Positions 19,867 to 29,278 of a stretch of 64,000 nt of DNA are shown here, one piece after another (position 1 is the first letter of the stretch; each line of letters opens with the position of its first letter). Under the pieces are notes generated by a model. That model did no database searches. It was not told the DNA's origin and saw only the letters and a list, made by a program, of their open reading frames with translations. The stretch lies in contig PAQM01000006.1 of NCBI GenBank assembly GCA_002709305.1, positions 62,001 to 126,000 of the forward strand, in the 5' to 3' direction. Position numbers and translations under genes: made by a program. This DNA is from Crocinitomicaceae bacterium. Lineage in GTDB: Bacteria; Bacteroidota; Bacteroidia; Flavobacteriales_D; Crocinitomicaceae.

Positions 19867-20226
19867 ATGGAAAAATTATATAAAATTAATTTTTTGAAAA
19901 ACTTTCTTTTTCTCTTATTAATTTCAGCTTTAGTAAGTTGTAATTCAAATAGTCATGATTCAGAATCACATAATCATGAAGATGTTAAAAAGGAATGTTG
20001 CTCAAAAGACAAAGAGAAGTCTTGTTCTAAGGAAGAAGAAAAATCTTGTTCGAAAGATAAAAAGGAATGTTGCTCAAAGGACAAGGAGGAGTCTTGTTCT
20101 AAGGATAAAAAGAAGTGTGATCTTTCAGAATGCGCAAAAATGACAAAAGAGGAATGCGCAAAAGTATGCGAAGAAAATAAATGTACTGATAAAGAAAAAG
20201 AAGCATGCATTTCTAAAACATCTTAA
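19867..20226 (+). CDS. Cysteine-repeat lipoprotein, possible metal-binding protein
   Basis: A 119-residue protein with a lipobox (ISALVSC, Cys 25). The mature part has a short His cluster (HDSESHNH) and then about five 8-residue units of the form (C/S)CSKDKE(K/E). After these come CDLSEC, EECAKVC, KC and AC. Apart from the lipidated residue I count 13 cysteines in about 94 residues, with many Lys and Glu between them. This composition recalls metallothionein-like or metal-sequestering proteins. I recognise no named family, and disulfide crosslinking is the main alternative. A strong terminator follows. Confidence 0.75.
   Translation: MEKLYKINFLKNFLFLLLISALVSCNSNSHDSESHNHEDVKKECCSKDKEKSCSKEEEKSCSKDKKECCSKDKEESCSKDKKKCDLSECAKMTKEECAKVCEENKCTDKEKEACISKTS
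19987..20106 (+). repeat. Imperfect 72-base tandem repeat inside the cysteine-rich lipoprotein gene
   Basis: The block beginning AAAAAGGAATGTTGCTCAAA at 19987 recurs at 20059 with few changes over about 47 bases, giving a 72-base (24-codon) period. Shorter 24-base units (TCTTGTTCTAAGGA and TCTTGTTCGAAAGA) lie within it. The gene therefore grew by internal duplication, and the repeat number could vary between strains. Confidence 0.75.
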
Positions 20227-25483: not shown

Positions 25484-26461
25484 TTAATAATCAACAATAT
25501 AACTTGTATCAGTCAAACTAATTAAAAAGTTTTTCAAATCTATACGTTCTGTTTTTGAAATATTAAATGGTACAATCCTCTTATCTTTATTCACATGTTC
25601 TTTCCCACCATTTGCATAATGATTGATTACTTCATCAATTGAAGTAAATGAACCATCATGCATATAAGGGCCAGTTAGCTCAACATTTCTTAAAGATGGA
25701 ACTTTAAATTTACCTATATCTAAAGAATCATTATGAATTCTAAATCTACCTTTATCTTTACCATAATCGATATAAAGTCCATTATTAATAGGTTTGAAAT
25801 TTGTAAAATAAGGTGCCGGATGACATTGATGACAATGGAACTTTTCTGAAAATAATTTCCAACCTCTTTTCTGTGACTTTGATAGAGCTCTATTATCGTT
25901 GTTATAATAAAATTTATCAAAATTACTATTTGTAGAGTATAAAGAACGTTCAAATGCAGAAATTGATCTAGTTAAAACCCAAGCATCAAAATCTCTATTA
26001 AAAATCTTTTTTGAAGTATTTTGATAAAAATCAATTTTACTTATTTTTAAAATAAGATCTTTCATATTCATTCCCATTTCGGTATGTTCTTGAATTGGAA
26101 CTATAACTTGTTGCTCTAAAGTTGGAAGATGAGCATCATACATTATAGTTGGAAGAAAAGCAACATTTAGTATTGTTGAAGCATTTCTTTGTGTTTTATT
26201 TCCATTTACACCAATAGATAAGGCCTTACCATCAGTGAAAGCTAATTTAGGTATATGGCAACTTGCACAAGATATTTCATTATTAATTGATAGCCTTTTG
26301 TCAAAAAACAATTTTTTACCTAACCTTATTTTTTCATTTAATAAAGTATCATTAATTGATAAGGAAGAATGATTTTGAATATTAGAGTTATTAAACTGCT
26401 TACAATTAAATAAAAAAAAGAAAATAAATATTATACTCCCTAAATAAAGAATATTTTTCAT
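25484..26461 (-). CDS. Di-heme cytochrome c peroxidase / MbnH-like (MauG family) lipoprotein
   Basis: A 325-residue protein with a lipobox (FFFLFNC, Cys 20). Two heme c sites are present: CASCH at 65-69 and CHQCH at 210-214. Family segments are GKKLFFDKRLS, FTDGKALSIGVNG, LPTLEQQ, PIQEHTEMGM and GPYMHDGSF. MauG-family di-heme enzymes oxidise protein partners or reduce peroxide. Because an MbnP-like gene lies directly upstream (eight bases), this one is best read as MbnH-like, the enzyme that oxidises a tryptophan of MbnP in methanotrophs. That activity here is inference. It would act in the periplasm or at the outer membrane. Confidence 0.9.
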   Translation of the reverse strand: MKNILYLGSIIFIFFFLFNCKQFNNSNIQNHSSLSINDTLLNEKIRLGKKLFFDKRLSINNEISCASCHIPKLAFTDGKALSIGVNGNKTQRNASTILNVAFLPTIMYDAHLPTLEQQVIVPIQEHTEMGMNMKDLILKISKIDFYQNTSKKIFNRDFDAWVLTRSISAFERSLYSTNSNFDKFYYNNDNRALSKSQKRGWKLFSEKFHCHQCHPAPYFTNFKPINNGLYIDYGKDKGRFRIHNDSLDIGKFKVPSLRNVELTGPYMHDGSFTSIDEVINHYANGGKEHVNKDKRIVPFNISKTERIDLKNFLISLTDTSYIVDY

Positions 26462-26469
26462 TATTTCTT

Positions 26470-27438
26470 CTAGTATACTATTTTAATAGATTTCAATCTA
26501 TTTCCTTGACTATCATATGTAGAAAATATATAATTTCCTTTGGATAAATCATTAAATACAACATCATCTTTAATCTTTGTCGATTTAGATTTATTAAGTA
26601 CAGATCCTGAAAAATCAATTAGTTCATAGTAAGAAATATTTTGCATCTTTTGCCAAAAAACTTTTATTCCATTTTGGCTACTTAAAAAATATATATGACC
26701 ATTATCATCAATGTTTTTAATAGAAGCATTAAATGGAGATGTAAATACAGGTCTATCATTTACATTATTCATTGTTGAAGAATTAGGACCGTTAGTCCCA
26801 TGTACAACACCAAAATCCCCCGGATTTACTCCATAAATCCATTGATCTAAATTAGTATTAATGACAATATCAATTTGAGAGTTATTTATATAAGTAGCAG
26901 TAATAGGAAGCTCTACACTTTTGAAATTATTATCACCAAAAGTATGGAGTGAAAAATTTGCTTCTGGAGAACCATCATTATTAGAATCTCCTTTTCCATC
27001 AACTAATACAAGAGCATAACCAGATGTCCAACCCCAGTGCATAGAAGGTGATTGAAAACTTAAGAAATGATTTGAAGGATATAGTGAAATATCTAGATGA
27101 TTTAGGGGTTCCGGAACACCAACACTAAAGTTTATTTTTTCAATGTTTGGTATGTTGTAATTTCCTAAAAAAAATGTATTTGCATCAGCTTTTACTAATA
27201 AAACAGTATCACTTAAATCTAAAGTTTGATTTCCATCATATGAAATAACAATATTAGAAATGTAATAATTAAAATGATTAATTTTCATACTAACACCATT
27301 AATATCTTGGACAATATCCCCTAATATTAAATCGTTACCTAAACATTTTGGCTTGAATGATAAATAAAGATTTGACTGAGCAAATGAAAAAGAACTAATT
27401 AATATAAATACAAAAAGTAAAACCCTCATAAGAAACAT
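26470..27438 (-). CDS. MbnP-like protein with T9SS sorting-like C-terminus
   Basis: A 322-residue secreted protein with a signal peptide ending SSFSFAQ (about residue 21; a second start at 27429 is possible). The MbnP-like domain spans about 22-245. It includes FNYYISNIVIS, the tryptophan-rich PSMHWGWTSGYALV (residues 131-144), a Ca-loop-like GDSNNDGSPEA, NFSLHTFG, and a WIYGVNPGDFGVVHG segment. Residues 250-322 (YYELIDFSGSVLNK, then LSKGNYIFSTYDSQGN) form a T9SS-type sorting tail. MbnP proteins bind copper and carry an oxidised tryptophan made by MbnH. The gene shares one base (TAATG) with the methyltransferase gene and is followed by the di-heme enzyme. Confidence 0.84.
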   Translation of the reverse strand: MFLMRVLLFVFILISSFSFAQSNLYLSFKPKCLGNDLILGDIVQDINGVSMKINHFNYYISNIVISYDGNQTLDLSDTVLLVKADANTFFLGNYNIPNIEKINFSVGVPEPLNHLDISLYPSNHFLSFQSPSMHWGWTSGYALVLVDGKGDSNNDGSPEANFSLHTFGDNNFKSVELPITATYINNSQIDIVINTNLDQWIYGVNPGDFGVVHGTNGPNSSTMNNVNDRPVFTSPFNASIKNIDDNGHIYFLSSQNGIKVFWQKMQNISYYELIDFSGSVLNKSKSTKIKDDVVFNDLSKGNYIFSTYDSQGNRLKSIKIVY

Positions 27439-28205
27439 TATTTTGAAACAATATACAAAATTTCACTATTTGATAACCTATACTTTTCTATGATTTTATC
27501 ATCATAATGTAAATTAAAATCAAATATATCTACATTAAATCCTGCATTTTTAAGCCATTCAGGGTAATCCATCCCAAATAAACGAACATGATCCTTTTGC
27601 CAAAAATGTTTTTCTCTGTCTTTTGCAGAAACTATACTTGAGTCTTCATATGTAACTTTTCTAGATGTATCCTGAGGAACTTGCATTATCCCCCATCCCC
27701 CAGGTTTCATAACTCTATACAACTCGCGCATGCATTTCATTGCATCATCAACATGTTCTAAAACATGATTACAAAAGATTACATCAAAACGATTATCTTC
27801 TAATGGAATAGAATGAAGGTCAAAATGCATCTCTGCAATAGGTGAAATTAAATCACCAGTCAAATAATTTAAGTTCTTTTGTTTTTTAAAAAGAGAAAAA
27901 AAGCATTGTTCAGGAGCTATATGTAGAAGATTTATATTCTTAGAAAAAAAATTAGAGTGATTTTTTAAATAAAGCCACATTAAACGATGCCTTTCTAATG
28001 TTAAATCATATGGGCATAAAACATTTTCTCTATGAGAGTTACCATAACCATACGATAAAAATTTCCTAAAACTTTTACCACAGCAAGGACATTCAACATT
28101 ATTTCCCTTATATAGATAAGGGGCAATTAATTTAAACAAATAACTAAATCTAATTAAGATAGGTCTAGGTAAACTATTTAATAAAAATTTATATATTTTT
28201 TTCAT
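27438..28205 (-). CDS. Class I SAM-dependent methyltransferase with zinc-ribbon-like N-terminus
   Basis: A 255-residue protein. The N-terminal part carries CPCCGKSF and a later Cys (VLCPYDLTLERH), which may bind zinc. The methyltransferase core follows: LLHIAPEQCF, YLTGDLISP, FDVIFCNHVLEHVDD and MKPGGWGIMQVPQD, of the Methyltransf_11 type. The substrate is unknown. Its stop overlaps the MbnP-like start by one base, so the three genes 28205-25484 probably form one transcript. Modification of a small molecule or of the glycan/protein products nearby are both possible. Confidence 0.85.
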   Translation of the reverse strand: MKKIYKFLLNSLPRPILIRFSYLFKLIAPYLYKGNNVECPCCGKSFRKFLSYGYGNSHRENVLCPYDLTLERHRLMWLYLKNHSNFFSKNINLLHIAPEQCFFSLFKKQKNLNYLTGDLISPIAEMHFDLHSIPLEDNRFDVIFCNHVLEHVDDAMKCMRELYRVMKPGGWGIMQVPQDTSRKVTYEDSSIVSAKDREKHFWQKDHVRLFGMDYPEWLKNAGFNVDIFDFNLHYDDKIIEKYRLSNSEILYIVSK

Positions 28206-28291
28206 ACTTAAACTTAAGCCTTAATGCAGATTATAATAAATGTTAAATTTATATATTTCAAATATATTTTTTAAAATAAACTTTTTTAAAA

Positions 28292-29278
28292 TTGAATAAG
28301 ACAATCTTAATTTTAATATTAATTTTCATTAAAATACCTGAATGTCTATGTCAAAAAAATGATTCTCTTTCTTATCAATTATTTAAAGATAGATTAGTAT
28401 TTTATTCAGATATAGGAATTAATTCAGCTCCATTCAATTTAAAAGATAATTTTAATTTAGGTATTGAAAAAATTAAATATAGAAATAACATAAAGCCTAC
28501 TCTAGGTTTTGGTTTTAATTATCAATGGCTTGCTATTCGAATAGGTTTTAATCTTCCTGTTAACATCCTTAATAAAGAAAAATATGGTGACACCAAATAT
28601 TTCAATATTAATATAAAATCTAATGTGAACAATTTTTTCTTTACAGTAGATTTTAAAAATTACCGAGGCTACTCAATAATTGATGCGTATAAATTTAATA
28701 ATGACATAGAAAATAATCTAATAATGCCATCTAATAACGCGATGAGTATATCAACAAATCTTTGGTATTTAAAAAATAAAACATTTAAAATGAGAGCTTT
28801 TGAAGGTAAGTCAGGTCATTTTAATAGTGAATCTAAAACTATGTATCTAAAGGGTACTCTTAATTACTTTAATATTCATAACAATTCTCAAAATATTATT
28901 CCTACTGAACTTGCGGATTCAATAGACTACAAAAATGCAGAAGAGATCGGGGCATTAGATTTTGGAATAATCCCTGGATTTGCGTATGGAAATAGAATTA
29001 AAAATTGGCAATTTGGATTATTCTTAGGTTTAGGCGGTGTTATTCAAACAAAATATTACACTAAAAATAATTCTACACGTTCATATATAGGAATAGCACC
29101 AAGGTTTGATTTTAAATTCTGTGGTGGATATTCTAAATCTAACTACTTTATACTACTTGTTAGTGATTTCGACATAAGATCGGTAAGAATTAACAACCTT
29201 AATTATAATCATACATTTTATAACGTTAGAATTACTGGTGGTTTTCGTTTAAAAACTAAAAAAAAGGACTATCAATAA
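28292..29278 (+). CDS. DUF4421-family outer-membrane protein
   Basis: A 328-residue protein starting at TTG, with a signal peptide (MNKTILILILIFIKIPECLC). The rest alternates short amphipathic strands: FNYQWLAIRIGFNLPVN, FFFTVDFKNYRGYSI, DFGIIPGFAYGNRIKNWQFG and a final YNVRITGGFRL. This fits a beta-barrel of the DUF4421 family found in Bacteroidota outer membranes. The function is unknown. Its 3' end overlaps the convergent gene by 23 bases. Confidence 0.8.
   Translation: MNKTILILILIFIKIPECLCQKNDSLSYQLFKDRLVFYSDIGINSAPFNLKDNFNLGIEKIKYRNNIKPTLGFGFNYQWLAIRIGFNLPVNILNKEKYGDTKYFNINIKSNVNNFFFTVDFKNYRGYSIIDAYKFNNDIENNLIMPSNNAMSISTNLWYLKNKTFKMRAFEGKSGHFNSESKTMYLKGTLNYFNIHNNSQNIIPTELADSIDYKNAEEIGALDFGIIPGFAYGNRIKNWQFGLFLGLGGVIQTKYYTKNNSTRSYIGIAPRFDFKFCGGYSKSNYFILLVSDFDIRSVRINNLNYNHTFYNVRITGGFRLKTKKKDYQ

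Follow-up and report, generated by a model that had tools for sequence, protein, structure and literature searches.

What does a gene pair resembling MbnP and MbnH of M. trichosporium do in a Crocinitomicaceae bacterium, where the MbnP-like protein carries a C-terminal extension and a methyltransferase gene adjoins? The question is raised by a stretch of 64,000 nucleotides of contig PAQM01000006.1 (the window), in which three genes lie on the minus strand at 25484–28205 in the order methyltransferase, MbnP-like gene and di-heme gene, followed by genes for an extracytoplasmic function (ECF) sigma factor and pyrD (Table 1). The pair is one of known families in a new form, namely a relative of a copper protein with an apparent surface-export tag and a linked methyltransferase. 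We hold with moderate confidence that it is an MbnP/MbnH-type pair in which MbnH-type oxidation turns Trp135 into kynurenine, and that the type IX secretion system (T9SS) then exports the resulting Cu(I) protein.

In the proposed course of events, MbnP would cross the inner membrane by Sec and then fold in the periplasm, where the membrane- or lipid-anchored di-heme enzyme would use peroxide to convert Trp135, in the WxW motif, into kynurenine. Kynurenine formation would complete a Cu(I) site of Met133, perhaps His165, and water, with Kyn135 nearby. T9SS would carry the matured protein to the cell surface, and there it may bind copper for uptake or protection.

The MbnP-like protein and the di-heme enzyme

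The three genes and the motifs SMHWGW (Trp135, Trp137), CASCH and CHQCH, all described in a first-pass annotation made from the DNA letters, are present as described, and the placement of the middle protein in the MbnP family proposed there also holds. The protein matches PF20243 above the Pfam threshold (91.4 bits, cut-off 27), and in its predicted structure, with a mean predicted local distance difference test (pLDDT) value of 93.2, the MbnP domain (residues 19–237) has M. trichosporium MbnP (7l6g) as its best fold match (Z 17.5, 202 aligned residues, root-mean-square deviation 2.9). Foldseek also relates the whole chain to 7l6g (E 1.3e-07), at a low TM-score of 0.42–0.47. A sequence search of the PDB with the window MbnP as sole query gave nothing at E ≤ 10, a profile of the tailed family matched T9SS tails and not MbnP, and a wider profile found 7l6g weakly (E 0.21), with GMAWNW at the place of WxW; it is therefore Pfam and the fold comparison that connect the protein with MbnP. 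Of 60 relatives, 57 have PF20243 proteins, with or without the tail.

Met133, Trp135 and Trp137 are kept throughout the 49 MbnP-labelled sequences that the Pfam profile retrieved (the window's among them), of which 36 also have His134 and 33 His114. Both Trp of WxW are likewise invariant in the larger alignment A3; this is not taken as evidence, because the search pattern for those loci itself holds WxW. Trp135, the first Trp of WxW, is the presumed kynurenine site, and Cu(I) binding by the protein is likewise a prediction. MbnH reportedly forms the kynurenine of MbnP, and the same study, Manesis 2021, is reported to have described the ligands of the site.

A Sec-like signal is seen by eye at the N-terminus of the MbnP-like protein. 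The one-base overlap with the methyltransferase gene that had been described holds only with ATG 27438 as the start; with Met4 (27429) the spacing becomes 8 bases. Most MbnP relatives in the alignment start at the place of window residues 3–4, and the true start is perhaps Met4.

The di-heme protein has two CxxCH motifs and scores 164.3 bits with CCP_MauG (cut-off 25.6). Its closest PDB chain by sequence is MbnH (6e1c, 1.3e-44; MauG about 1e-15), and 6e1c is also the best fold match of the predicted model (Z 33.5, 298 aligned residues, root-mean-square deviation 3.1). Fold alone barely separates MbnH from peroxidases (Z 32.5 and 32.4) and MauG (31.2), because the Z scores are nearly equal. Taken together, sequence and model place the protein as a MauG-type enzyme closest to MbnH. 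Gln118, Pro122, Glu128 and Tyr282 are invariant across the 57 enzymes of alignment A4, and residue 108 was assigned to MauG position 93 because the window spacing 108-118-122-128 equals 93-103-107-113 of MauG (Gln103, Pro107, Glu113 and Tyr294 are numbered after PDB titles; Trp93, Gln103 and Pro107 after the available text of PMC6405878). The axial Tyr position is kept in 158 of 164 enzymes, with two His and four gaps, the 164 being 63 from the window and its relatives and 101 from named loci. By this alignment, Tyr and not Met is predicted at the axial ligand position of the window enzyme, as in MauG and MbnH.

Lipidation of the enzyme, put forward in the first-pass annotation, is plausible: most of its clade has a Cys where the hydrophobic stretch ends, judged by eye. 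The lipobox LFNC is irregular, with Asn at −1, and two near relatives (L038 and L033) have no Cys there.

The inter-heme position is variable. Over the 164 enzymes it holds Trp in 71, Arg in 50, Phe in 25, Leu in 8, Tyr in 3, Ser and Met in 2 each, and Ala, His and Thr in 1 each. A quick tree search without bootstrap, made with 161 of the enzymes, puts the 69 with Trp together on one side of a branch with a Shimodaira–Hasegawa-like approximate likelihood ratio (SH-aLRT) support of 98, and the window clade of 26 enzymes (22 Phe, 3 Tyr, 1 Ala) has a support of 99. Two methyltransferase-linked enzymes of another genus, L298 and L299, which are outside the tree, carry Trp; therefore Trp loss is not uniform in the methyltransferase-linked group.

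MbnP and MbnH labels are adjacent in 36 of 40 loci. Tailed-MbnP loci were taken as the best 80 of 316 relatives from a contig scan with the WxW-containing pattern; near-copies occur among them (e.g., L179/L180 and L209/L212), and contig ends truncate some of the loci. An MbnH-labelled frame lies in 77 of these 80 named loci, and “MbnP” labels on proteins of ~220 and 400–560 residues, ascribed to the shared tail, were excluded from the MbnP counts. Sorted by enzyme, 38 loci combine a Trp enzyme with a non-Trp one, 31 have non-Trp only, 6 Trp only, and 5 no readable letter. The 38 are thus loci with two MbnH-type enzymes at one MbnP (e.g., L166 6992–9092 and L183 6961–9074), one with Trp and the other mostly with Arg at the inter-heme position.

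The window's own genome harbors a second MbnP/MbnH pair (L070, contig C25, 4826–6648). Its MbnP is lipoprotein-like and tail-less, with an MHWDW motif, and its enzyme, with FFWDG, keeps the inter-heme Trp.

Table 1. Features of the three-gene unit, in window coordinates.
Feature	Position	Strand	Basis
Class I S-adenosylmethionine (SAM)-dependent methyltransferase, 255 aa	27438..28205	-	PF08241 6.4e-15
MbnP-like (PF20243) protein, 322 aa, immunoglobulin (Ig)-like C-terminal tail	26470..27438	-	PF20243 9.1e-26
MHWGW, residues 133-137 (Met133, Trp135, Trp137), within SMHWGW	27028..27042	-	conserved in 49/49
His165, candidate copper ligand	26944..26946	-	conservation; putative role
Putative diverged T9SS type A sorting domain, residues 246-322	26473..26703	-	profile and fold comparisons
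MbnH/MauG-type di-heme enzyme, 325 aa	25484..26461	-	CCP_MauG 3.8e-48
First heme motif CASCH, residues 65-69	26255..26269	-	
Tyr108, inter-heme position (Trp93 in MauG)	26138..26140	-	alignment column and spacing
Second heme motif CHQCH, residues 210-214	25820..25834	-	
Tyr282, axial ligand position (Tyr294 in MauG)	25616..25618	-	alignment of 244-282 with MauG 256-294

The sorting-like tail and copper genes around relatives

The C-terminus had been called sorting-like, and relatives and controls support its being a T9SS tail. TIGR04183, the T9SS type A profile, is matched at E ≤ 1 by all 18 members of alignment A1 (best 2e-14), and the A1 profile in turn finds the solved T9SS tails 8glk (6.9e-6) and 8glj (6.5e-4). 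With a model built from 30 T9SS tails of the window's genome, the window tail scores 14.6 bits, above the maxima of 500 shuffles (10.5) and 10 decoys (4.1). The domain is well predicted, in blocks of pLDDT 94–97, and its fold matches RemA-CTD (C-terminal domain; 8gl6) and RemZ (8gl8), both at Z 8.6. SprA, the T9SS component searched for, is encoded in the same genome (2415 bits), which marks the organism as a T9SS host, and the genome holds 75 T9SS-tail matches, 72 of them over the cut-off. The window C-terminus thus appears to be a T9SS type A domain that has diverged, with a weak signal in this protein and a clearer one in relatives, and T9SS-dependent export of the protein would be expected from it.

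A three-gene set adjoins the MbnP/MbnH pair in 13 of the 80 tailed-MbnP loci (among L143–L222): a ~225-aa protein with a T9SS tail, a ~287-aa Cu-oxidase_2 protein, and a ~400-aa protein with a multicopper oxidase domain and a T9SS tail. The domains were read from the copies in L033 (7894–10620) and L056 (1416–4158); the L056 copy of the ~287-aa protein has no NCBIfam match. In at least 90% of 19 homologues each, the ~400-aa protein conserves His87, His89, His128, Cys129, His130, His136 and Met141, and the ~287-aa protein conserves His214, His216, His262 and His264, with Asp263 where Cys would be in the copy read. The four HxH motifs, which we take to be those of a multicopper oxidase trinuclear site, lie over two chains and suggest a split trinuclear copper site, so that the multicopper oxidase beside tailed MbnP looks as if divided over two genes. 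All 13 loci fall among the 31 non-Trp-only loci and none among the 38 two-enzyme loci (Fisher 5e-6, uncorrected for kinship).

A survey of 137 nearest neighbours at 40 loci, out of 198 passing a 1000-aa limit and with near-copies dropped, gave at least 8 matches to Cu-oxidase_2, at least 5 to Cu-oxidase_3, at least 3 to HMA and at least 15 to T9SS tails, matches that overlap the three-gene set. Around methyltransferases unlinked to the pair (16 loci, 77 of 91 neighbours), no copper family appears among the 25 listed of 108, where single hits could be hidden, and T9SS tails are matched by two among those listed. The copper role suggested in the first-pass annotation is thus supported by neighbourhoods in relatives and not by the window's own genome, in which none of the oxidase halves was matched. 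The claim that methanobactin genes are absent nearby stands for MbnB, whose family PF05114 has no match in the genome (a control search gave hits in 2 of 14 genomes; of the methanobactin genes, the search covered MbnB).

There are further observations on these neighbourhoods. A ~700-aa neighbour considered as a copper ATPase was rejected, being a prolyl oligopeptidase. Clusters of small proteins lie near tailed MbnP in L146, L162, L166, L174, L187, L209, L212 and L220; the one at 1896–2243 of L166 has a GVCGMC motif which, by eye, is like a heavy-metal-binding domain.

Alternative explanations and the place of the methyltransferase

Several results weigh against kynurenine formation followed by surface export. 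Because of scores below the NCBIfam cut-offs (TIGR04052, the MbnP equivalog, 38 bits vs 140; TIGR04039, for MbnH and the best NCBIfam model of the enzyme, 252.7 vs 362.85), the two proteins are by sequence relatives and not members of these equivalogs; TIGR03791 for MauG is also under its threshold (198.7 vs 443.85). The four-Cys motif, a feature taken from the molecule name of 7l6g, is not present in the window MbnP, whose single Cys is residue 32 of the precursor. The His165 position is not universal, with His in 43, Arg in five and Ser in one of the same 49 sequences. The inter-heme residue is Tyr108 and not the Trp reported to be necessary in MauG; the MbnH chemistry that had been called established is so for M. 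trichosporium, from which the window enzyme differs here. The window tail reaches 13.5 bits with TIGR04183, below the curated cut-off of 23, and is the weakest of its set with the own-genome model, where the 60 relatives of A3 score 15.0–68.3; unrelated Ig-like domains score up to Z 10.2 against it, so the T9SS folds do not stand out. Of the two oxidase halves, the ~400-aa protein is matched in the window's genome by its tail only, and the ~287-aa protein gave no match in a search without a positive control. Lastly, at 25 places a window-like MbnH lies beside the methyltransferase with no MbnP between.

The low tail scores would fit a periplasmic copper protein, in which kynurenine would be formed as in MbnP and a degenerate tail would no longer sort, so that the protein stays in the periplasm. 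The tail-less second MbnP with its own MbnH in the same genome also fits such a protein. We regard this explanation as rather unlikely, since the domain is well predicted, scores as a T9SS tail in all 60 relatives of A3, and occurs in a T9SS host.

It is less likely still that the methyltransferase is a working third component, modifying, for example, a surface glycan for T9SS cargo attachment, or MbnP before export. In a survey of 150 genomes of the family, window-like MbnH (E ≤ 1e-75) was found at 113 places in 107 genomes: 40 with methyltransferase, MbnP and MbnH in that order, 25 with the methyltransferase directly upstream of MbnH, 15 with MbnP and MbnH, and 33 of other arrangement. The first arrangement occurs in six genera and the second in five, seven in all, and four more places have methyltransferase and MbnP with no MbnH in range. 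Intergenic gaps, with script-picked start codons, are small: −8 to 77 bases between methyltransferase and MbnP in 23 other full loci (22 of them within −8 to 13), and −32 to 51 bases between methyltransferase and MbnH in 16 loci. Among 39 related loci compared, which were picked for holding the unit, it is intact even in places where the remaining listed genes on either flank are different (L286, L292, L293, L302 and L114). Against a working component stand 58 of 127 methyltransferases in the family with neither gene adjoining, the 15 pairs without methyltransferase, three of which (G114, G147 and G165) may be cut by contig ends, and the lack of linkage in 16 loci of other genera and families. 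In genus g29, six MbnP-MbnH pairs are separate from the methyltransferase. The window methyltransferase has an N-terminal CPCCG motif. By eye it has no signal peptide, and so it is unlikely to meet folded MbnP.

The adjoining methyltransferase in many relatives bears out the first-pass suggestion of one unit in gene order, where the link is real; a shared function is unproven, because 58 of the 127 stand alone and up to 15 pairs lack the gene. The methyltransferase is a frequent operon partner, most likely one that is transcribed together with the pair but is dispensable for the chemistry. Specificity of the methyltransferase for MbnP was rejected, a homologue being present in 40 of 60 relatives and unlinked in the 16 loci just mentioned.

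The arrangement without MbnP between is seen in L105, L109–L115, L118 and L296–L302. Since MbnH there adjoins the methyltransferase and no MbnP lies between, a different function of the enzyme is possible. A distant MbnP partner is also possible, because among the 29 genomes known with this arrangement, all 23 searched for PF20243 carry a member elsewhere. Two of 16 such enzymes (L105 and L118) are without the axial Tyr.

These copies, the near-equal fold scores with cytochrome c peroxidases and the replaced inter-heme Trp (though peroxidases have that Trp too, according to the available text of PMC6405878) would suit a peroxide-detoxifying peroxidase with MbnP as its electron or docking partner and no kynurenine, which the close pairing with a WxW protein and the axial position, with the MauG Tyr and not the peroxidase Met (same source), make improbable.

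A wider picture, doubtful at present, is a surface copper system of Bacteroidota's own. It would consist of a T9SS-exported kynurenine copper protein and maturing di-heme enzymes whose inter-heme Trp is replaced by Arg, Phe, Tyr or Leu, often as a Trp/Arg pair, and, in some lineages, of a multicopper oxidase whose two halves are separate exported proteins. In Crocinitomicaceae, the methyltransferase would be a working operon part, and MbnH copies beside it without MbnP would act on another target.

Other features of the window touch the unit less directly. Promoter-like sites occur at chance level (30 vs 31.5 expected) and the window has 118 TAnnTTTG sites, the one at 28266 among them, hence no promoter is claimed; the sole terminator-like site is on the plus strand, opposite to the unit. 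A divergent gene (28292–29278, plus strand) encodes an exported-looking protein of 328 aa with no Pfam or NCBIfam match, a homologue of which adjoins or is near the methyltransferase in many relatives. At 19867–20226 on the plus strand, a 119-aa lipoprotein-like protein without Pfam match has many Cys pairs (CCSKDKE repeats) and is possibly metal-binding.

Comparison with known systems

The pairing of MbnP with MbnH has also been described outside the methanobactin producers (available text of PMC3621798). No paper on tailed MbnP was found in the literature searched; most subscription papers lie outside its coverage, so novelty is not proven. Kynurenine copper sites are known from methanotrophs, and if tailed MbnPs have them too, the surfaces of Bacteroidota may commonly bear such sites. 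In that case, the inter-heme residues that occur naturally (Trp, Arg, Phe, Tyr and Leu) would also offer a ready test of the need for Trp in protein oxidation.

The M. trichosporium pair (7l6g and 6e1c) shares with the window pair the folds, the WxW motif with its preceding Met, the tandem arrangement and the axial Tyr position. The window pair differs in the missing MbnB match and four-Cys motif, the T9SS-like tail, scores below both equivalog cut-offs, and Tyr at the inter-heme position, where 6e1c has Trp by alignment. MopE/SACCP and CorA/CorB of methanotrophs resemble the proposed window system in that a copper protein with kynurenine is associated with the cell surface and its gene is co-transcribed with that of a di-heme protein (available parts of PMC3912023 and PMC3621798), and differ in that MbnP proteins show no marked sequence similarity to them (PMC3621798); the available text of PMC3912023 on MopE and CorA mentions T9SS 0 times. 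MauG shares with the window enzyme the distal Gln, Pro and Glu and the axial Tyr positions, and differs in its substrate, in its inter-heme Trp and in being more distant in sequence than MbnH. BthA of Burkholderia is a parallel for the replaced residue: it also has no inter-heme Trp, yet forms bis-Fe(IV), with Ser where the window enzyme has Tyr, and is without an MbnP-like partner in the context described in the available text of PMC6405878.

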